Shown here: positions 10,420 to 34,877 of the stretch, one piece after another
Layout: every line of letters starts with the position of its first letter
Position numbering within the stretch: the first letter of the stretch is position 1
Made by a program: the position numbers and the translations under genes
NCBI GenBank assembly: GCA_018819105.1
Contig: JAHJQV010000065.1
Coordinates: forward strand, 1-64,000
Direction: 5' to 3'
DNA: 64,000 nt
DNA from: Gammaproteobacteria bacterium
GTDB taxonomy: Bacteria; Pseudomonadota; Gammaproteobacteria; Xanthomonadales; Wenzhouxiangellaceae
The notes under the pieces: model-generated
The model's input: only the letters and a program-made list of their open reading frames with translations
Told to the model about the DNA's origin: nothing
Database searches by the model: none

Positions 10420-11066
10420 TCATTTGCCGCAACAAACTGATGCAAGCCGTCATGCTGATGCTTTTGCTGGCATTCTCTGCCAGCGCAGCGCATGCCACTT
10501 CAATCTACAAATGGCTGGATGACGACGGCCACATCCACTACAGCCACACTGTGCCACCGGAAGTGGTGCGCAAGGAACACCAGCGTCTCAACAATCAGGC
10601 GGTGGTCATGGAGCATGTTGAAAGTGCCGATGTGCCCAACATGCTGGCCGAACTGGAACTGACGCAGTCACAAAAAGCCAGACGCATCGAGAAGCGACTG
10701 CTGCTGGCCACCTACAACAGCGTTGCCGACATTGCCGAAGAGCGCGACAAATCGCTGGCGTGGCTGGACAAGGAGCAGCAGATTACCGAGCGCTACCTCA
10801 ATCTGCTCACCGAGCGCCTGCGCGAAGCGCGTTACTTCTACAGTCGCCTGTCTGATGGCGAGGGACTGGCCATCTCCACCATGCAGTCGACCATCGATTC
10901 ACTCAATCAATCGATCCGGCAGCAAAAGCAGCGTCAATTTTCCATCGAAAAGAAGCGCCAGCTGGTCAACAACCAGTATGCCATTGAGGTGTCGCGCTAC
11001 AACGAAGCGCTGGCGTTGAGTGAAAGCAACCAGCTCGATCTGAAACTGCCGGCGCTGGACTACTGA
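10416..11066 (+). CDS. DUF4124-type secreted protein with coiled coil
   Basis: Exported protein of unknown function. After a signal sequence (LMQAVMLMLLLAFSASAAHA) comes a DUF4124-like motif SIYKWLDDDGHIHYSHTVPP, then about 130 residues of charged helix rich in Gln, Glu, Arg and Lys, likely a coiled coil. The start at 10416 is preferred because it overlaps the pyrE stop (ATGA) and follows a GGGGAGC site inside pyrE. Likely translated together with pyrE, though no functional link is apparent. 216 residues. Confidence 0.85.
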   Translation: MIICRNKLMQAVMLMLLLAFSASAAHATSIYKWLDDDGHIHYSHTVPPEVVRKEHQRLNNQAVVMEHVESADVPNMLAELELTQSQKARRIEKRLLLATYNSVADIAEERDKSLAWLDKEQQITERYLNLLTERLREARYFYSRLSDGEGLAISTMQSTIDSLNQSIRQQKQRQFSIEKKRQLVNNQYAIEVSRYNEALALSESNQLDLKLPALDY

Positions 11067-11187
11067 TCGCCGCACTGCCGGTCAGGGTCTGGCCGACGGT
11101 TGTAACAATGATCAAAACTCCATGACTTCGTCATCGCGGCAGGTAGTATGCTTGTCACCATGATCTTTACTGCACATCACTGAAATC

Positions 11188-11442
11188 GTGTCCAGGCAAC
11201 GCCAAGCCAGCAGTCTGGCTAAGCACTGCGCGTGCAAGACGCGACAATTCCTGCAGGACCTGGATGGCTGCGACTACACCGATCTGTACAAATCAGTGAT
11301 GTGCGAGGCCGAACTGGGCCTGTTGCAGGCGGTGATGGAACACACCGGCGGCAACCAGTCCAGCGCTGCCAGGCTGCTTGGCATCACCCGCACCACACTG
11401 CGGCAGAAACTGCGCCAGCACCAGCTGCTGGTCAATCAGTAA
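11188..11442 (+). CDS. fis: Nucleoid protein Fis
   Basis: Small DNA-bending protein active in growth-phase control, recombination and rRNA transcription. The 84-residue product ends in the Fis helix-turn-helix (GNQSSAARLLGITRTTLRQKL) and contains YKSVMCEAELGLLQAVMEHT, which matches the dimer core. The start is a GTG, the N-terminus is shorter and more basic than in E. coli Fis (98 residues) and has two cysteines (CAC), so the start is uncertain. The order fis-purH-purD is the one found in Pseudomonas and relatives; the usual upstream dusB is absent. Confidence 0.88.
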   Translation: MSRQRQASSLAKHCACKTRQFLQDLDGCDYTDLYKSVMCEAELGLLQAVMEHTGGNQSSAARLLGITRTTLRQKLRQHQLLVNQ

Positions 11443-11523
11443 GCACTGCCAGCGCGCAGTACTGCACCTAAGTCCGGTGCGGTAAAATCCACGTTTATCC
11501 GCGACCGGCATCAGGCCTGATTC

Positions 11524-13143
11524 ATGCACAGCCAGCAACCAATCACGATCAAAACCGCCTTGCTCAGCGTATCCGACAAACGTGGCATCGTCGAGCTCGG
11601 ACGCGCGCTGCAGCAGCACGGCATACGCATACTCAGCACGGGCGGCACGGCTGCCGCGCTGGCTGCGGCGGACATTGCCGTCACCCCGGTCAGCGCCGTC
11701 ACTGGTCAGGCCGAGATCATGGATGGCCGGGTCAAGACGCTGCATCCGAAAATCCATGGCGGCCTGCTGGCACGGCGTGACGTCGATGCAGCGGTCATGC
11801 AAGCGCAGGGCATCACCGGCATTGACCTGCTGGTGGTCAATCTGTACCCGTTCACGCAAACCGTGGCCACGCCAGGCTGCAGCCTGGACAATGCCATTGA
11901 GCAGATTGACGTCGGCGGGCCAGCCATGCTGCGCGCGGCCTGCAAAAACCACGCCTGGGTGACCACACTGACAGACCCTGACGATTACCCCAGCCTGCTG
12001 CAGACGCTGCCGCAGGCACCGCCGCTGGCTGTCCGGCAGCGACTGGCGCAGCAGGGCTTTGCCATGACCACCGCCTACGATGCCGCCATCAGCGCCTATC
12101 TGCAGCAGCAGTTCGCCGCCGCACAGCCGACTGCAGAAGAATCTGCGATGCCTGCACCCAGCTGGCCACAGCATCTGCAGCTGAACCTGCGGCGCAGCGA
12201 ACCGCCACTGCGCTATGGCGAAAACCCGCATCAACAGGCCGCGCTGTACGTGCCGGCACAGGCCAGCGGCAAACAGGGCCTGGTTGGCGCACGCCAGTGG
12301 CAGGGCAAAACGCTGTCCTACAACAACTGGATGGACGCCGATGCCGCCTGGCAGACTCTGCAGGCAATCAGCACATGCCGCCCGGAGCAGGCCGGCTGCG
12401 TCATCGTCAAACATGCCAATCCCTGCGGCGCCGCTCTGGCCGATGACATCGGACACGCCTACCAGCTTGCCTTTCAGTGCGACAGCACCTCGGCGTTCGG
12501 CGGCGTCATCGCCATCAACCGCTGCATCAGCGCGGACTTCGCCAGCGCGCTCATACAGCGCCAGTTTGCCGAACTGCTGCTGGCACCCGACTGTGATGAG
12601 CATGCCCTGGCGGTGCTGGCAGAAAAGCCCAATCTGCGCGTGCTGACGCTGGCCGATGTCAGCACAGCCGAGGCTGCACTGCCTGATCTGCGCCGCATCA
12701 GTGGTGGCTATCTGGTACAGCAGCCGGACCTGGCCACGGTTGCGCGCGATGCCATGCAGGTGGTCAGCCAGCGCCAGCCGGATGCGCAGCAATGGCAGGA
12801 TCTGCTGTTTGCCTGGCAACTGGTGCGTCAGGTGAAATCCAATGCCGTGGTGTATGCCCGCGACGGCCACAGCCTGGGCATCGGTGCCGGCCAGATGTCG
12901 CGCATCGACAGCGCCCGCATCGCCGTGGACAAGGCCAGCCAGGCCGGCTGGGACATGCAGCAGGCGGCCATGGCCTCCGAGGCGTTTTTCCCCTTTCGCG
13001 ACAGCATTGATGCAGCCCACGCCGCCGGTGTGCGTTGCGTGATCCAGCCGGGTGGATCCATGCGCGATCAGGAAGTGATCACCGCCGTGGACGAACACGA
13101 CATGTGCATGGTGTTCACCGGCCGGCGCCACTTTCGCCACTGA
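11524..13143 (+). CDS. purH: Bifunctional AICAR formyltransferase / IMP cyclohydrolase
   Basis: Catalyses the last two steps of IMP synthesis. The 539-residue product has the N-terminal MGS-like cyclohydrolase domain (ALLSVSDKRGIVELGRAL, MDGRVKTLHPKIHGGLLA) and the C-terminal formyltransferase domain with the catalytic motif VKHANPCGAAL, NAVVYARDGHSLGIGAGQMS and RDSIDAAHAAGVRCVIQPGG. Length matches the family. It is separated from purD by 528 bases that hold hairpins and a tandem array, an unusually long gap for this pair. Confidence 0.98.
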   Translation: MHSQQPITIKTALLSVSDKRGIVELGRALQQHGIRILSTGGTAAALAAADIAVTPVSAVTGQAEIMDGRVKTLHPKIHGGLLARRDVDAAVMQAQGITGIDLLVVNLYPFTQTVATPGCSLDNAIEQIDVGGPAMLRAACKNHAWVTTLTDPDDYPSLLQTLPQAPPLAVRQRLAQQGFAMTTAYDAAISAYLQQQFAAAQPTAEESAMPAPSWPQHLQLNLRRSEPPLRYGENPHQQAALYVPAQASGKQGLVGARQWQGKTLSYNNWMDADAAWQTLQAISTCRPEQAGCVIVKHANPCGAALADDIGHAYQLAFQCDSTSAFGGVIAINRCISADFASALIQRQFAELLLAPDCDEHALAVLAEKPNLRVLTLADVSTAEAALPDLRRISGGYLVQQPDLATVARDAMQVVSQRQPDAQQWQDLLFAWQLVRQVKSNAVVYARDGHSLGIGAGQMSRIDSARIAVDKASQAGWDMQQAAMASEAFFPFRDSIDAAHAAGVRCVIQPGGSMRDQEVITAVDEHDMCMVFTGRRHFRH

Positions 13144-19108: not shown

Positions 19109-19501
19109 TCAGAGATTCCCCAATCGATACGGAATCAATACCTCAGGATCTCCTCCGGGCTGAAAATCACGTGTATTTCGAGTCACCAGCGTCAATCCGT
19201 GGGCGCGGGCGATTGCAGCCTGGATTGCATCCGGCAGCTTCCAGGACGAAACGCGACGCAGGCGCGCTGCATCGTCTGCTATCTCAGTGGTCATCGGCAA
19301 GGTCGGGAATGTATCCAGCAGCTTACGCGCAAGCAGCACCGAGCCCGCGTCGAATCCGACCAGCACTTCGGCGCGGGTGATCACCGACAGTGCCGACTCC
19401 GAGCCATGCGAGCTGATGAAGGCCGTTGCCAACTTGATGCCATTAAAGTGATCAATCAGAATGACCGAATCGAGCAGATAGATCACTCGCGCCGATCCCA
19501 T
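19109..19501 (-). CDS. vapC: PIN-domain toxin, VapC type
   Basis: Metal-dependent ribonuclease toxin. The PIN-domain acidic residues are visible in YLLDSVILIDHF, TRAEVLVGF and LPDAIQAAIARAHGLTLVTRN, ending TRDF. Two starts are possible: ATG at 19501 (130 residues, overlapping the antitoxin by 19 bases) or GTG at 19486, which overlaps the antitoxin stop as GTGA and gives YLLDS at the very N-terminus, as in most VapC proteins. The second is attractive. Target RNA unknown. Confidence 0.88.
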   Translation of the reverse strand: MGSARVIYLLDSVILIDHFNGIKLATAFISSHGSESALSVITRAEVLVGFDAGSVLLARKLLDTFPTLPMTTEIADDAARLRRVSSWKLPDAIQAAIARAHGLTLVTRNTRDFQPGGDPEVLIPYRLGNL

Positions 19502-19728
19502 TCTTCACGCAGACGTTGCTGCCACGCCAGACCGTCGCCCTGACGCCAGATGCCGGCGGTATCGTTTAGCGCGCGCTGCAACGTCGGCCGGTCGGCCGCC
19601 TGTTCGCGCACCCGGTACTCGTGCACCGCCTCGCGCACCAGCCGGGCCATGGAAACACCCCGCGCGCGGGATTCGGCGTCCAGCCACTGCTTGTCCTCCG
19701 GGTCAAGATTGATCAGCGTTCTTGGCAT
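19483..19728 (-). CDS. vapB: Ribbon-helix-helix antitoxin, VapB type
   Basis: An 81-residue partner of the PIN toxin. The N-terminus (MPRTLINLDPEDKQWLDAE, ARGVSMARLVREAVHEY) is a CopG-like ribbon-helix-helix DNA-binding domain. The C-terminal part, rich in Trp, Arg and Gln, would contact the toxin. It precedes and overlaps the toxin gene. Repeats at 19742-19772 upstream are likely autoregulatory sites. Confidence 0.87.
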   Translation of the reverse strand: MPRTLINLDPEDKQWLDAESRARGVSMARLVREAVHEYRVREQAADRPTLQRALNDTAGIWRQGDGLAWQQRLREEWDRRE

Positions 19729-25479: not shown

Positions 25480-28400
25480 TTAACCAGTCTGCACCGCCGA
25501 GCTGAGCACAAAACCGGCCCAGAAATAGGGGTGCGCGGTGGCCGGCTGCGAGCGCATCCAGGCCTGGGTCTGTTGCAGTGCATGGGCGCTGTCCAGCCGA
25601 TCCACCAGCAGGTACTGGTAGAAGCGCTGCATGAACATGGCGGTGCGATGATCGTCCACCTTCCACAATGACGACAGCACCTGCTCGGCACCGGCAATCA
25701 GAAACGGTCGCGCCAGACTCATCGCGCCGTCGCCGGCGATGATGCGTCCCTGCCCGGTTTCACAGCCACTGAGCACCACCAGCCGGGCCTGCAGATCCAG
25801 CCCCAGAATGTCATGCGGTCGCAACAGCGCCGGTCCATTGCCGTGCTCGTTGGCCAGCAGCAGCGATGACAGCATCGGATACTGCAGATCAACCAGACCG
25901 TGCGAGGCAATGTGCACCAGCTGATAGTCGGCCAGCCCACCGCCGGTAATGAATTCACTGCTGGCAACCCGCCCCAGGCGCAGATCAACCCTGGTCGACG
26001 ACTGCAGAGCGGCAATGGCTTCGGCCTCGCGGCGCGTGCCGGGCAGGCGCGCACTGCCGGTATCGCGCAGCAGGCGGCCGACCAGACTGTTGCGCGGATA
26101 CAACGGGCTGGGTTCATCCGCCCCCTCCCAGTCGGGGTCGGCCAGCACCAGCATGGTTTGCTGTCCGCTGCCGGCCGCGGTTGAGGCCGTGGGATTCGAC
26201 GCGTCGCCATGGTCGTGCTCAGCGGACCCGGCCAGATCCTGCGCGGACGCTGGCTGCAGCTGCCCAGATTGCGCCAGCAGCGCAGCCGATGGCACCGACA
26301 GCAGTGGTTTGTCGGCCAGAGCATGCACTGTGTCCTGCGCATCGGCATAGGTGAGCAGCGCAAAGGGCAGCGAGTTGAGCACCGCATCGGCCTGCACCAG
26401 CACCTCGCTGGCAGCGGCCAGCTGTGCGGCGGCCGGAGCCAGCAGACTCTGCCCCAGTTCGGCGGCCAGTTGTTCGATACGACCGCGCGCATTGCGCGGA
26501 TGCTGCGCCTGCTGCAGCAGCGAGCGCACCTGCATGGCGATGGTCTCGGTGGCACCCAGTTTGTGATCACGCACGCTGGTCTGATCGATGACCCAGACCA
26601 GCAGCTCATCGCCGCGCAGATAGTAACTGAGCAGCAACTGATCGGGGTGCAGCAGCGACTGCAGCTTTTCCAGCGACAACTGTGCGGTGACCGAATTGTT
26701 CAACAGGCCACTGTCATCACTGCGCAGCAGTGTTTCGATGCGATCGATCTCGCGGCGTGCGGCCAGCACCGCGCTGGCGTGGTTGGCACCCTGCTCGGCA
26801 CCGGGCGTCAGCGTCATCTGATGCAATTGCGTCACCGCCCGGGCGCGCTGATCCAGCAGTGGCTGCTGCTGCGCACGCTGCTGTGCACCGACGCGTTCCA
26901 GACGCAGTTCCTGCAGACTGCGCGCACGCGCCTGCTCGGCCACGCGCCAGGCTTCACGTGGCTGGCCATCGTCAAGCAGCGCCGCCACCTGGCGATCGTA
27001 CAGCGAGCGCCGCGCGGCGAGAAACTCGGCCTGACGCAACGCTGGCAACTGGCCCGAGCGCAGCGTCTCGGCCAGCGCGATGGCGCGCGCATTGATGCGC
27101 AGGGCGGCCTGGCGATCACCGGCGCTCTGCTCCAGTTGTGCCAGGCGATCCAGTGTCTCGAATTCGGCCAGCACATCGGCAGACTGATCCAGTTGCTGCA
27201 GGGCCAGCTGCAGGCTTTGCCGTGCTGCCGCAAGATCGCCGCTTGCCAGCTGGGCCTGACCAAGTCTGGACAAGGTGATCGCCGCCTCCGGCTGGGCGTC
27301 CAGATCACTCAGTTCCTGCTGCGTGGTGCGCAGCAGCGGCAGTGCACGCGCGGCGTCGCCCTGCAGCAGCAGCAGGTAAGCCAGTTCGGCGCGCACGCTG
27401 AGCATCTCAATGCGCATGTCGGCCTGCTGGTACTGACCGGCTGCCTGCTCGAATTCGTTTTTCGCCGCCGCAAAGCTGCCCTGCTGGCGCAAATACTCAC
27501 CCTGGTTCAGCAACAGCTTGCCGCGCGTGCTGGCGTCGTCCACGTTCAATGCCAGCGCCTGCTGCAGGTGCTGGCTGGCCGCTGCCTGATCGCCGAGCAG
27601 GGCATACAATCGACTCAGATTGAGCAGCGTCTCGGCCTGCCACAGCGCTGCATCAGTGGTTTCGAAATAATCAAGCGCTGCGGTCAGCAGCAGCAGCGCT
27701 TCATCCAGCCGTCCCTGGCGCTGCAACATCTGCGCCAGATTGCGCCGCGCCTGCTCCACCACCTGCTGTTGATCCACCAGTCCGTCAAACGCCAGCACAT
27801 TGCGCCAGTAGCGCTCAGCCAGCAGTCCTTGGCCATTGCCGTCCAGCAACAGCGCCATGTTGTTCAGCGTGTTCAGTGCGTTGGAGGGGACATTGCTGTC
27901 TTCGCGTTGCAGCATTACCATGGCCTGCTGATTATCGATCTCGCGACGCAGATCCAGCTCTCCCTGGAACACGGTCAGCGCCAGCTCATACTGGCGCAGG
28001 GCCTCGACGCGGTCACCGCGCTGCATCGCCAGCAACCCCAGGTTGTTCGCCAAACCTGCCAGAGACAATTGATCTTGTAACTGCTCGCGCAGTTGCATGG
28101 CGCGGCGGTAATGCTGCTCGGCCTGCTGCAAATGGCCCAGTCGCCAGCGGGTCAGGCCGAGCAGGTTCTCGGTGGCGGCCACGCCGCGCTGGTCTGCCAG
28201 CGTCTGGTATTGCTGCAGTAGCTGTTGATAGTGTTGCAGCGCGGCCTCCAGCTGGCCGAGATTCAGCAGATGTGCTGCCAATTCATTCCGTGCCGCAACC
28301 TGCCAGGCCAGCAAGCCGGCCTGGTCAAAACCGTTCATTGCCTGCTGCAGCAACTGCTGGATCCGGGCACTGTCCACGGCCTGGCCAAAATAGCGCTGCA

Positions 28401-28773
28401 GCTTGAGATCAACCGCATCGGCCAGTGCCTGGGCTGCGGCCATCGGCAACTGCGGCGGGCAGCTGCGCAGGCTGATCTGTTCGCTCAGAGCCGGTGCTTC
28501 CAGCGGCCGCAGTCGCACGCTGTGCGCGCGGCTGTCCGCCAGTAACAGATAGCTGCCCTCACGACCGCGCCAGGTGCCGGCATAGCGGATGATTTCGTCA
28601 TTGCTGTCGCGGTACTCGGCAATGCTGTCGACGCCGTGATTGGCAACAATCTGACACGGCAGCATTGCGCTGGCGGGCAACACCATGCTGTCGCTGGCCG
28701 ACCACACCAGAGGTGCAATCAGCGCAAGCAACGCTGCCGCCAGCCACACTTCAGGCAGCCGGCGCGGACACAC
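25480..28773 (-). CDS. Large TPR-CHAT protein (caspase-like peptidase), probably exported
   Basis: A 1097-residue protein. After a hydrophobic segment near residues 9-25 (VWLAAALLALIAPLVW) that looks like a signal peptide or anchor, it has many tetratricopeptide repeats over about residues 130-600 (for example AALQHYQQLLQQYQTLADQR and QAEQHYRRAMQLREQL), a long helical region, and a C-terminal CHAT domain. The CHAT dyad is intact: His958 in HIASHGLVD and Cys1004 in VVLSGCETGQG, with AGAEQVLSSLWKVDD after it. CHAT domains are caspase-clan peptidases. The start is a GTG with a weak ribosome site, 36 bases after the upstream lipoprotein gene. It ends a same-strand row behind an ECF sigma and an anti-sigma-like gene. 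Substrate unknown. Confidence 0.9.
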   Translation of the reverse strand: MCPRRLPEVWLAAALLALIAPLVWSASDSMVLPASAMLPCQIVANHGVDSIAEYRDSNDEIIRYAGTWRGREGSYLLLADSRAHSVRLRPLEAPALSEQISLRSCPPQLPMAAAQALADAVDLKLQRYFGQAVDSARIQQLLQQAMNGFDQAGLLAWQVAARNELAAHLLNLGQLEAALQHYQQLLQQYQTLADQRGVAATENLLGLTRWRLGHLQQAEQHYRRAMQLREQLQDQLSLAGLANNLGLLAMQRGDRVEALRQYELALTVFQGELDLRREIDNQQAMVMLQREDSNVPSNALNTLNNMALLLDGNGQGLLAERYWRNVLAFDGLVDQQQVVEQARRNLAQMLQRQGRLDEALLLLTAALDYFETTDAALWQAETLLNLSRLYALLGDQAAASQHLQQALALNVDDASTRGKLLLNQGEYLRQQGSFAAAKNEFEQAAGQYQQADMRIEMLSVRAELAYLLLLQGDAARALPLLRTTQQELSDLDAQPEAAITLSRLGQAQLASGDLAAARQSLQLALQQLDQSADVLAEFETLDRLAQLEQSAGDRQAALRINARAIALAETLRSGQLPALRQAEFLAARRSLYDRQVAALLDDGQPREAWRVAEQARARSLQELRLERVGAQQRAQQQPLLDQRARAVTQLHQMTLTPGAEQGANHASAVLAARREIDRIETLLRSDDSGLLNNSVTAQLSLEKLQSLLHPDQLLLSYYLRGDELLVWVIDQTSVRDHKLGATETIAMQVRSLLQQAQHPRNARGRIEQLAAELGQSLLAPAAAQLAAASEVLVQADAVLNSLPFALLTYADAQDTVHALADKPLLSVPSAALLAQSGQLQPASAQDLAGSAEHDHGDASNPTASTAAGSGQQTMLVLADPDWEGADEPSPLYPRNSLVGRLLRDTGSARLPGTRREAEAIAALQSSTRVDLRLGRVASSEFITGGGLADYQLVHIASHGLVDLQYPMLSSLLLANEHGNGPALLRPHDILGLDLQARLVVLSGCETGQGRIIAGDGAMSLARPFLIAGAEQVLSSLWKVDDHRTAMFMQRFYQYLLVDRLDSAHALQQTQAWMRSQPATAHPYFWAGFVLSSAVQTG

Positions 28774-28809
28774 GGATAGTAACAGTCACTGCGAGCGATT
28801 AAAGCGAAT

Positions 28810-29499
28810 TCAGTTTCTGCCCGTGCCCGTGCCAGTACCCGGATCAGGCGGCGACATGGCATGAAATCCGCGAAATTCGCTGCTGGCGGTCAGGCAGTTG
28901 GGCGGGGTGGCCCCGGTGCTGACAATGCTCCAGTTCATCAAATCGTCATGGGCACAGTTGGCGGCCAGCTGTTTTTCTGACATTTTCAAACCGGCGTCCT
29001 TGAGTTGCTCGGTACAGCTCTTGCCCGGGTTGCGGTTCTGGCCATGTTCCTTGATCAGGTTCACGGTCAGTTGCTTGCAGCTGTTTTCCTGCAGTGTCTT
29101 GTCATCGAAGTTAAGCACCAGTTGGTTGTCGTTCAGGCTCTTGATGGCGGCCTTGAATTCATAGCGATCCAGCGTGCTGTGCTTGACCAGTATCAATGTG
29201 GCATCCTTGCTGCCGGAGACGTTGCGCACCTGAAACTCATCGCCCGGTTCCATGTTGCGATAACTGCTGCATTCTTTTTGCGCAGGATCCTGGCAGTACT
29301 GCACGGTCCAGGTGAAGTTGGTGAGTTCCTGTATTTCTGCAACTGCTTCGGGGGCAACTGCTTCGGGGGCAACTGCTTCGGGGGCAACTGCTTTGGCGCT
29401 GTCGTCTTGTGCGTTAACGCTGATCGGACTGGCGCTGCAGCCCAGCGCCAGGGCGCTGATGACCAGGGTGGCGAACAATGAAGGTTGCTTGCTATCCAT
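28810..29499 (-). CDS. Putative lipoprotein with VAPEA tandem repeats
   Basis: No recognised family. The 229-residue product begins with a short N-region and a hydrophobic stretch ending in a lipobox (LALGCSAS), so it is probably lipidated. A linker of three VAPEA repeats follows (residues 38-53), then a mixed domain with six cysteines (CQDPAQKECSSY, ENSCKQL, GKSCTEQL, AANCAHDD, PPNCLTA), then a PGTGTGTG tail. ATG at 29499 follows AGGAG by 8 bases. It lies directly upstream of the TPR-CHAT gene, so it may be a partner or substrate of that protein; this is inference. Confidence 0.75.
   Translation of the reverse strand: MDSKQPSLFATLVISALALGCSASPISVNAQDDSAKAVAPEAVAPEAVAPEAVAEIQELTNFTWTVQYCQDPAQKECSSYRNMEPGDEFQVRNVSGSKDATLILVKHSTLDRYEFKAAIKSLNDNQLVLNFDDKTLQENSCKQLTVNLIKEHGQNRNPGKSCTEQLKDAGLKMSEKQLAANCAHDDLMNWSIVSTGATPPNCLTASSEFRGFHAMSPPDPGTGTGTGRN
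29341..29400 (-). repeat. 15-bp tandem repeat inside the lipoprotein gene
   Basis: AACTGCTTCGGGGGC occurs three times in a row (29341-29385), followed by a diverged fourth unit to 29400. Each unit encodes one pentapeptide of the VAPEA type. The three copies are identical, which suggests recent expansion or slippage; changes in copy number would stay in frame. Confidence 0.9.
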
Positions 29500-29669
29500 G
29501 ATGGTTCTCCTGATGTTGTTGTGGTTCCAAGTTTGATATTGCTATCATGCAGGCACAAAAAACGCCGTAACGCTGATGGCAGCGCTGCGGCGGTGGTTCG
29601 TGCATCGATGTCATCACGTTACAACCCGGCGGACAACGATCACGGTAAATTGGCCTTGAGCAGGCGTTA

Positions 29670-29850
29670 GCCCGGATTATTCATGACCCGACCGTCGCGA
29701 GACGGATCCATACCTTGTAGCCGCGGCGTTTCGCGACCGAGCGCACCACAGGCGTACTCGCCTGTACGGTGAGGATGGGCGACCGAACTAAACGGCGCGG
29801 ATGCTGGGCTTGGGGCCGTCGCAGCAGGTTTGGTCATGAATAATCCGGGC
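29670..29850. mobile_element. Family-2 MITE-like element, copy 1
   Basis: A 181-bp element bounded by perfect 19-bp inverted repeats GCCCGGATTATTCATGACC (29670-29688 and 29832-29850). A related copy lies at 35010-35189. It has no gene. It sits 6 bases past the anti-sigma stop and about 170 bases before the lipoprotein start, within the sigma/CHAT row. The left flank is TA; the right flank begins AT. It largely fills the gap 29500-29856; the remaining bases carry no clear feature. Confidence 0.8.
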
Positions 29851-29856
29851 ATAGTG

Positions 29857-30471
29857 TCAGTTCAATCGATAGGTCTTGTTGAAACTGCCATCGGCGCTGC
29901 TGACCTGCAGTTCAACGTCCTCATGCAGCGCTGGCACAAACACGGTCAGATAGCCGCGCTGATCAGCCTTCAGGCCATGCCATGTGTTGCTGCCGGCACT
30001 GTCCTGCAGAGTGACATCAAAGCTCTGCGTCATGTAGGCAGAGACATCCACCTCCAGTATCGCCTGCTGCAGGTCTGCGGCAGCAGGCTGCGCCGAATCT
30101 GCCAGCGCGCGCTGTTCCATCAGGGTGATGACCGGCACCTGCACCTGCGGGCCTGACAGTCGGTCGATCTGCTGTGTCAGCGTGTGCATGCGGATGCCCA
30201 TCGCCACCACGGCCAGTGTAAAGAGCCCGATGACCGCTTGCAGCGGCCATCGGGTGGGTACGCCCAGCATTCCCCATATGCTGCCTGCGGTCGATTCTAT
30301 CTTCGTCGTAACGAGACCCTCGCGAATCATGTCGTCAATCTGAACTTGCGCAAACAGTTCATCATCGTCGAGCATCTCGATTTCCAGGCGCTCCGAATCG
30401 GCCGACTCCCCGGCGCTCAGGAGATATCGCTGTATACGTTCCTGCTGTCGTTGATCATCATGCTGGTTCAT
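29857..30471 (-). CDS. Anti-sigma-like single-pass membrane protein
   Basis: The 204-residue product has a cytosolic N-terminal part (residues 1-72) with the stretch ERIQRYLLSAGESADSERLE and MLDDDELFAQVQIDDMIREG, a layout common in sigma-binding N-termini of anti-sigma factors. One transmembrane helix follows at about residues 75-95 (WPLQAVIGLFTLAVVAMGIRM in part). A 110-residue extracytoplasmic C-terminus looks beta-rich. There is no zinc-binding HxxxCxxC motif. It is 98 bases downstream of an ECF sigma gene on the same strand. ATG at 30471 follows GAGGG. Role as anti-sigma is inferred from context and topology. Confidence 0.72.
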   Translation of the reverse strand: MNQHDDQRQQERIQRYLLSAGESADSERLEIEMLDDDELFAQVQIDDMIREGLVTTKIESTAGSIWGMLGVPTRWPLQAVIGLFTLAVVAMGIRMHTLTQQIDRLSGPQVQVPVITLMEQRALADSAQPAAADLQQAILEVDVSAYMTQSFDVTLQDSAGSNTWHGLKADQRGYLTVFVPALHEDVELQVSSADGSFNKTYRLN

Positions 30472-30569
30472 CAACCATACCCTCGAACATAAGCCATATT
30501 TCCTGCTCCCTGTATGCCTACTGTCAGCATGCCGGCAGTTCTCTCACCTGGTGTGAAAAAAGATGGTTT

Positions 30570-31205
30570 TCACAGCTCAACGTGTTTCTCCAGCAACTTG
30601 CGGAAGCGGGCGCGGGCGCGGAATATGACGCGGTCGAAATGCTCGGCACTGACTTCCAGTGCCGCGCAGATGCTTTCTTTCGGCTCCTCAGTGAGGTAGA
30701 AGCGGCGCAGTATCTGCCGGTCGCGCGGCTGGCGCAGTGCCTTGAGCGTGTTGCGGATCAGCTCGGCACGCTCCTCCTGCTCGATCTGATCACTGAGCAG
30801 CGGTTGCTGGTCGGCAGCACTGGCGATGACATCCCAGTCCGGGTGAGTGTTGCGACGATGGTAGGTGCGTGCCTCACCGATGGCGAGATTGATCGCCGTC
30901 TGATAAATGAATGCGGCCAGGCGTTCGGGATCGTCAATGCCGCGTTCACGCAGGCGCTGCAGCACCACGATGAAGGTCTCCTGGCGCAGGTCAGCGGCCA
31001 TGGAGGCATCACGGCAGCGACGCCTGAGGATGAACTCGATCTTGGTGCTGTAACGGCGCACCAGTTCGACTTCGGCCATGGCATCGCCGGCGGCAATGCG
31101 GGTGGCCAGGTCTGCGGGTCTCAGCACCGCGGCCGAGTTTGTCTCTGGATCGTCGCGCATCAGTACAGCAATGCCGGGCTCGGGGCCTGCACGGCCGGGT
31201 GGCAT
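30570..31205 (-). CDS. ECF-family RNA polymerase sigma factor
   Basis: A 211-residue sigma factor with region 2 (AEVELVRRYSTKIEFILRR, DLRQETFIVVLQRLRER, AFIYQTAINLAIGEARTYHR) and region 4 (LRQPRDRQILRRFYLTEE, EVSAEHFDRVIFRARARFRK). Region 1 and 3 are absent as in ECF sigmas. An alternative start at the Met in VLMRDDPE (31160) would shorten it by 15 residues; neither start has a good ribosome site. It heads the minus-strand row sigma / anti-sigma-like / lipoprotein / TPR-CHAT. On the minus strand TATACT at 31355-31360 could be a -10 element, without a good -35. Confidence 0.9.
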   Translation of the reverse strand: MPPGRAGPEPGIAVLMRDDPETNSAAVLRPADLATRIAAGDAMAEVELVRRYSTKIEFILRRRCRDASMAADLRQETFIVVLQRLRERGIDDPERLAAFIYQTAINLAIGEARTYHRRNTHPDWDVIASAADQQPLLSDQIEQEERAELIRNTLKALRQPRDRQILRRFYLTEEPKESICAALEVSAEHFDRVIFRARARFRKLLEKHVEL

Positions 31206-34142: not shown

Positions 34143-34182
34143 AATGCTATGATGTACATACTTTTCGTTGGAGTGCAGCGGC

Positions 34183-34443
34183 ATGACGACTTCCGTATCA
34201 ATTCGTGAACTCAAGGATCAACTGTCCAGCTATGTGCGCCGGGTTCGTGCCGGTGAACATGTGCTGCTCACATCAAGACAGCGCCCGGTGGCGCGCATTC
34301 TTCCCATTGAGGAAACGGACGAATCCGGGCGATCGACGCTGCCACTGGTGCACTGGTCGGGAGAGCGGCCACAGGGAGGAGGTGAGCGTCCACAGCTTGA
34401 AGATGCCAGCGTTGCCGCTGTGGTGCTTGCGGATCGACGTTGA
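34183..34443 (+). CDS. Phd/YefM-family antitoxin
   Basis: The 86-residue product starts MTTSVSIRELKDQLSSYVRR, followed by AGEHVLLTSRQRPVARILP, the standard Phd/YefM fold. The C-terminal half is rich in Gly, Arg, Glu and Pro and probably unfolded until it meets the toxin. The start at 34183 is preferred to 34168 from family alignment. It overlaps the toxin gene by 4 bases. Confidence 0.88.
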   Translation: MTTSVSIRELKDQLSSYVRRVRAGEHVLLTSRQRPVARILPIEETDESGRSTLPLVHWSGERPQGGGERPQLEDASVAAVVLADRR

Positions 34444-34877
34444 TTCTGTATCTGGACACCTCGGCACTGGTCAAGGCATACATTGATGAGCCAGGCACCG
34501 AACAGGTGCTGGAACAGCTGCGCCTTGCCGACATGGCTGCCACGCATGAGATCGCCTATGTTGAAGCGCGTGCAGCCTACGCCCGTCTCGCTCGCCAGGA
34601 GCAATTGACGCAATCAGAACTTGACCACGTCAAGGCAGAATTCGAGAAGGACTGGCCGCGTTATGCCAGCATCGGATCCGATGCCGCATTGCTGGGACGC
34701 GCGGCCGAAATGGCCGAGGCATTTTCACTTCGCGCGTATGACAGCGTTCATCTTGCCGCCGCAGAATACCTGGCGAGCGGTGTGAACGAAGCGGTCAGAT
34801 TTCTCTGTTACGATCGCAAGCTTTGTCAGGCTGCTGCAGTACTGAGGTTGGTGTTGATGGACGATCCGCCAACATGA
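34440..34877 (+). CDS. PIN-domain toxin, VapC type
   Basis: A 145-residue ribonuclease toxin. PIN acidic positions are seen in LYLDTSALVKAY, EIAYVEARAAYAR, YDSVHLAAAEYL and FLCYDRKLCQAA. The start is a TTG overlapping the antitoxin stop (TTGA), consistent with translational coupling that keeps toxin output low. A PIN toxin paired with a Phd-type rather than ribbon-helix-helix antitoxin distinguishes it from the pair at 19.1-19.7 kb. Confidence 0.9.
   Translation: MILYLDTSALVKAYIDEPGTEQVLEQLRLADMAATHEIAYVEARAAYARLARQEQLTQSELDHVKAEFEKDWPRYASIGSDAALLGRAAEMAEAFSLRAYDSVHLAAAEYLASGVNEAVRFLCYDRKLCQAAAVLRLVLMDDPPT

Follow-up and report, generated by a model that had tools for sequence, protein, structure and literature searches.

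Several described systems place an extracytoplasmic function (ECF) sigma factor beside a protease. In the type III-E CRISPR system Craspase the TPR-CHAT peptidase Csx29, which works with Cas7-11, is encoded in the same locus as its substrate Csx30; it cleaves this protein between residues 427 and 429, and both act on the sigma factor CASP-sigma (PMC10028731). The genes of the actinobacterial ECF54 group have a CHAT, subtilase or carboxypeptidase gene nearby, and the group has been proposed to be controlled by proteolysis, with no anti-sigma factor involved (PMC8999054, citing Huang 2015 and Casas-Pastor 2021). In CalpL-CalpT-CalpS of type III CRISPR the protease cuts the anti-sigma factor CalpT and frees an ECF sigma factor, and SAVED-CHAT, also of type III CRISPR, contains a CHAT domain (PMC11417357). 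Here we analyze a row of four genes on a stretch of 64,000 nt (the window; contig JAHJQV010000065.1 of assembly GCA_018819105.1) from a gammaproteobacterium of the family Wenzhouxiangellaceae, and propose that its products may form an envelope signalling cassette in which an exported TPR-CHAT peptidase cuts a membrane anti-sigma factor after an invariant arginine. No description of an exported CHAT protein associated with an ECF sigma factor and a membrane anti-sigma factor was found in the open literature, which as consulted did not cover the classification of Casas-Pastor 2021, and the neighbourhood may have been noticed earlier.

The row is encoded on the minus strand, and all four open reading frames reported in the initial annotation were found in their places: the ECF sigma factor, a single-pass membrane protein with an anti-sigma layout, a small protein and the TPR-CHAT protein. 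The sigma factor (211 amino acids, 30570-31205) exceeds the family cut-offs of TIGR02937 (63.8 bits, cut-off 42.9) and Sigma70_r2 (31.3 bits, cut-off 24). The family searches gave no match for either the anti-sigma-like protein (205 amino acids, 29857-30474) or the small, apparently secreted protein (229 amino acids, 28810-29499). The TPR-CHAT peptidase (1097 amino acids, 25480-28773) scores 178.4 bits with PF12770 (cut-off 24) and 98 bits with TPR_12, and with its His/Cys dyad it belongs to the CHAT peptidase family. Of the four TPR-CHAT genes of the source genome (3.1 Mb, 98.7% complete), that of the window and one on contig C56 belong to full rows with sigma, anti-sigma and small-protein genes, and the other two (contigs C7 and C28) are adjoined by the small-protein gene only. 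The RAMP family PF03787, used as the test for Cas7-11, is unmatched throughout the 3.1 Mb genome, and no other open reading frame of Cas7-11 size lies near the row, in agreement with the earlier claim that the window has no Cas gene.

In 41 related genomes every CHAT locus was located, and nearly all of these loci were fetched with their flanks and scanned with profiles. An ECF sigma gene lies within 6 kb of the CHAT gene in 35 of 53 loci (this and the following linkage counts are uncorrected for kinship), 18 of which also contain an anti-sigma gene of the window type; the chance expectation for a nearby ECF sigma gene, derived from the ECF counts of six genomes, is about 9-16%. In the reverse test 80 loci from named genomes were fetched by sigma similarity alone, and a full-length CHAT gene was found within about 10 kb in 60 of them, several of the remaining 20 lying near contig ends or being cut by them. 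The sigma-fetched loci come from Wenzhouxiangella, Lysobacterales, Tahibacter, many Alteromonadaceae, Marinicella and Steroidobacter, with a few from bins labelled Thermoanaerobaculia, Acidobacteria and Myxococcaceae. In nearly all rows among them the anti-sigma gene adjoins the sigma gene, and the CHAT gene may be downstream, upstream or convergent. Where a genome has the sigma gene with no adjoining CHAT, a CHAT gene was present elsewhere (9/9). Sigma homologues occur in 39 of the 41 related genomes and the close sigma group in 17, all of which encode a CHAT protein, as against 4 of the 24 others (one hit below the family cut-off counted). The co-occurrence suggested by the initial annotation is thus real, and CHAT genes of this kind are not mostly found apart from the sigma gene. 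Seen in two directions and in many families, the neighbourhood is not due to chance, and the gene set is found again, with no CRISPR genes, in many marine and soil bacteria.

The AlphaFold2 (AF2) model of the anti-sigma-like protein (predicted local distance difference test, pLDDT, 84.6) comprises a helical N-terminal domain (residues 4-62), a membrane helix (76-106; minus strand, 30157-30249; also seen in hydropathy), a strand (115-118), a loop and a beta-sandwich (137-204). With the N-terminal domain predicted to be cytoplasmic, the protein and its ECF sigma neighbour would have the layout of the RseA type, and binding of the sigma factor by this domain is probable. The alignment contained 86 non-identical sequences in 65 clusters at 40% identity, with a mean between-cluster identity of 19%. 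The sole fully invariant residue is Arg122 (86/86; codon at 30109-30111, minus strand), followed mostly by Ser, Gly or Ala; Tyr17 (85/86) and Glu31 (84/86) are also conserved. Arg122 is placed in the loop after strand 115-118 and before the beta-sandwich, where pLDDT is about 55, and the model predicts that this periplasmic loop is flexible. Searches with the periplasmic domain gave weak beta-sandwich matches only (E of 6e-3 or worse) and no convincing sequence match in the PDB.

In many CHAT rows that have no window-type anti-sigma gene, its position is taken by a gene for a different single-pass protein, whose N-terminal domain is often of the zinc type. Shortly after the membrane helix these proteins carry a hydrophobic-R[GSAN] motif (such as EVLR/G, TLR/S or YR/S), which was present in 7/7 discovery loci and, among 40 later-fetched CHAT loci, in 4/4 further clear zinc-type cases, which belong to the same lineages; several of the motifs have Asp or Glu at P4. 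Thirty usable single-pass proteins, obtained from the neighbourhoods of 40 ECF genes remote from CHAT, served as controls. The hydrophobic-R[GSAN] motif occurs in 11/11 zinc-type proteins of CHAT rows and in 6/30 controls (Fisher p 4e-6), and R[GSAN] in 84/87 window-type anti-sigma proteins and in 11/30 controls; the p values of such motif tests overstate the evidence because the sequences are related. The earlier idea that CHAT cuts the anti-sigma protein gains support from this pattern, as judged from sequence, since the second anti-sigma type shares the periplasmic arginine with a small P1' residue, and the invariant Arg122 is the strongest new evidence.

The peptidase itself begins with MCPRRLPEVWLAAALLALIAPLVWSA followed by Ser, a typical signal peptide (about residues 1-25; minus strand, 28699-28773) of a layout also seen in the row CHATs of other genomes. 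Hydropathy rules, applied here in place of a trained predictor, indicate a signal peptide in 42 of 60 row CHATs, and in most of the remaining 18 it was, by eye, apparently missed through the choice of start codon. These signal peptides therefore point to an envelope system, unlike the cytosolic Csx29. Within the CHAT domain (minus strand, 25501-26469) the His/Cys dyad is intact, as claimed before, with His958 (25900-25902) and Cys1004 (25762-25764) each kept in 70/70 row CHATs. Also kept are Asp1041 (70/70; 25651-25653) and Glu916 (67/70), the former corresponding in the alignment to the Asp in LWDVTD, a separase motif, and replaced by Pro or Ser in two Csx29 chains. Cleavage after Arg is described for separase, metacaspase, clostripain and gingipain R (PMC4357240); among clan CD enzymes that cut there, gingipain R, MALT1 and modelled separase have acidic S1-pocket residues for Arg (PMC4357240, PMC4626109), and separase prefers D/ExxR (PMC4626109). 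By analogy we infer that Asp1041 and Glu916 are acidic residues of the S1 pocket in the row CHATs.

We therefore suggest, giving it close to an even chance, an envelope cassette of the following kind. The cytoplasmic domain of the anti-sigma protein would hold the sigma factor at the inner membrane, and the TPR-CHAT protein would act in the periplasm after export; there its TPR and N-terminal domains, possibly together with the small secreted protein, might sense a signal and switch on the caspase-like domain. Active CHAT would then act as site-1 protease and cut the anti-sigma protein between Arg122 and the following Ala in the loop just outside the membrane, after which RseP and a cytoplasmic protease would finish its degradation and free the sigma factor; one gene for an RseP-type M50 protease is present in the source genome (PF02163, 236 bits). 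The small secreted protein may be a regulator or a co-substrate. The wider proposal, that exported Arg-specific TPR-CHAT enzymes are site-1 proteases of two diverged types of ECF anti-sigma protein, each with an Arg and small-residue site just beyond the membrane, and make up a widespread class of envelope signalling, is advanced tentatively, at somewhat under even chances. If this is true, caspase-like enzymes are envelope sensors in Gram-negative bacteria, the bacterial site-1 proteases gain a new enzyme family, and the protease, anti-sigma and sigma logic of Craspase has a CRISPR-free counterpart in another compartment. Arg122 and the His958/Cys1004 dyad are defined targets for mutation, which makes the question directly testable.

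Several observations weigh against cleavage of the anti-sigma protein by CHAT. Arg122 is also kept in anti-sigma proteins without an adjoining CHAT gene (the nine such genomes checked are those with CHAT elsewhere). An ancient periplasmic domain may be common to the two anti-sigma types, in which case the Arg motif could be inherited structure and not convergence. Six loci (L062, L076, L077, L203, L205 and L211) have a Ser/Thr kinase-like membrane protein between the ECF sigma and CHAT genes instead of the anti-sigma protein, and no consistent Arg motif was found in these kinase-type rows. The small protein of Alteromonadaceae rows has no signal peptide, whereas CHAT has one. The pair of small protein and CHAT may have a value or output of its own, or act on the anti-sigma protein of another row. 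No convincing shared promoter of the sigma factor was found by two-block Gibbs sampling on 79 upstream regions (scores of 774-786, against 739-757 for one shuffled set).

Some of these points favour a different account, in which the sigma factor controls the cassette, CHAT and the small protein are its outputs, forming an envelope effector pair, and another protease cuts the anti-sigma protein, Arg122 being kept for folding, for membrane placement or for that protease. ECF sigma factors commonly transcribe their own neighbourhood, the position of CHAT relative to sigma is variable, and Arg122 persists where CHAT is not a neighbour. Solitary pairs of small protein and CHAT are also found in the same clade, and in two cases the remains of an anti-sigma gene lie in front of the intact pair. 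In these two relatives (L064 and L065) the upstream DNA is collinear with the 3′ part of an anti-sigma gene and is not open, with local alignment scores of 106 and 89 as compared with a shuffled mean of about 25 (standard deviation about 3.5), reached by none of 200 shuffles; upstream of the solitary pairs of the window genome itself the trace is weak (L005) or absent (L006). The solitary pairs are nested among full rows in the CHAT tree, therefore the sigma and anti-sigma genes were probably lost and the pair retained. However, this account leaves unexplained the enrichment of the Arg and small-residue motif in CHAT-linked over control anti-sigma proteins and the presence of CHAT in every sampled genome with a window-type sigma factor, and no common promoter was found in the 79 upstream regions. 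We regard it as rather doubtful.

It is also conceivable, and improbable in our estimate, that CHAT in reality acts on the small secreted protein, processing or releasing its Gly-Thr-rich tail, and that the sigma and anti-sigma proteins control expression only. The small protein of the window clade has a conserved Cys pair, a late Trp and a Gly-Thr-rich C-terminal tail (GTGTG in the window, at 28810-28840). Most CHATs of the clade, among them all four of the source genome, have it as a neighbour, and it is retained in the solitary pairs; GTGTGG-like tails also end several otherwise dissimilar CHAT-adjoining small proteins (L100, L101, L151, L159, L161 and L178), and Craspase offers the precedent of protease and substrate encoded together (PMC10028731). 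On the other hand, no conserved cleavage-like residue was found in the small protein, the Arg before the tail being followed by Pro in several members, some rows have no small protein between the anti-sigma and CHAT genes (L043/L103), and the Alteromonadaceae small protein is seemingly not exported although CHAT is. Its designation as a lipoprotein in the initial annotation held in part: the protein is a predicted secreted one, whereas the lipoprotein label is uncertain, LALGC being a weak lipobox and the relatives having ordinary signal peptides. The AF2 model has a pLDDT of 63, and the best PDB matches (nitrophorin and lipocalin-like) are not significant. A perfect 15 bp tandem repeat of 3.7 copies (29339-29393) encodes VAPEA repeats after the signal peptide.

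That the row might be a CRISPR-free Craspase, with a cytosolic CHAT cleaving a cytosolic anti-sigma protein, is suggested by the same kinds of parts and by the action of Csx29 and Csx30 on CASP-sigma (PMC10028731), but it is very improbable given the CHAT signal peptides, the membrane anti-sigma protein, the 30.6 bits scored with the Csx29 model NF041237 (cut-off 300) and the lack of a RAMP gene. Neighbourhood of unrelated genes by chance, for which the commonness of ECF sigma genes might speak, is practically negligible with linkage far above expectation in two directions and many families.

Between the anti-sigma and small-protein genes of the window lies a 181 bp element with 24 nt terminal inverted repeats (29670-29850). 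It looks like a member of a high-copy family of miniature inverted-repeat transposable elements, its arm (GCCCGGATTATTCATGA...) having 73 genome matches at no more than one mismatch and a control pattern none. Because one copy splits the row, the four genes may not form a single transcript in this genome. Alteromonadaceae and allied rows contain an animal-type haem peroxidase (PF03098) in addition to the small protein between anti-sigma and CHAT, and in L124, L134, L143, L155, L165 and other Alteromonadaceae loci the peroxidase too lacks an obvious signal peptide. Row L058 includes a trypsin-like gene. In locus L112 a DUF4062-like gene, recognized by eye (10846-11928), follows a sigma gene of the window group that has no adjoining CHAT or anti-sigma gene; DUF4062 proteins have recently been described as antiphage NADases (PMC13174449). 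Elsewhere in the window two VapBC-type toxin-antitoxin-like pairs of a PIN-like protein and a small partner were noticed by eye (19109-19728 and 34168-34877). Reading the row as a defence system was considered and rejected, PADLOC giving weak matches only.

The association of CHAT, sigma and anti-sigma inferred in the initial annotation stands, and its cytosolic setting is replaced by the envelope. The close analogy with Craspase drawn there did not hold. A TPR-CHAT peptidase, an anti-sigma protein and an ECF sigma factor in one locus are common to both; here, however, the row is CRISPR-free, CHAT is predicted to be exported, the anti-sigma protein is membrane-bound, and the separase-type Asp lost in two Csx29 chains is present. 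A score so far below the Csx29 cut-off, together with a signal peptide, argues against orthology with Csx29. With ECF54 the row shares an ECF sigma factor with a CHAT or other peptidase gene in conserved context and the idea of proteolytic control, but an anti-sigma protein, described as lacking in ECF54, is nearly always present here and the phylum is another, the two being compared by description and gene context only. CalpL-CalpT-CalpS and SAVED-CHAT resemble the present proposal in the protease-cut anti-sigma protein that releases an ECF sigma factor and in the CHAT domain, respectively; they differ in being cytosolic, activated by cyclic oligoadenylates and CRISPR-linked, and CalpL is a Lon-type protease. 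The likeness to the RpoE-RseA-DegS-RseP pathway of envelope stress, a case of regulated intramembrane proteolysis, extends to the ECF sigma factor, the single-pass anti-sigma protein, the encoded RseP and the proposed periplasmic site-1 protease. In the present row the site-1 role of the HtrA serine protease would fall to a caspase-like TPR-CHAT peptidase, the anti-sigma protein has a beta-sandwich and the invariant Arg, and no RseB-like gene was noted in the row. In its proposed working the system resembles DegS/RseA, a caspase-like enzyme replacing DegS, more than it does Craspase.

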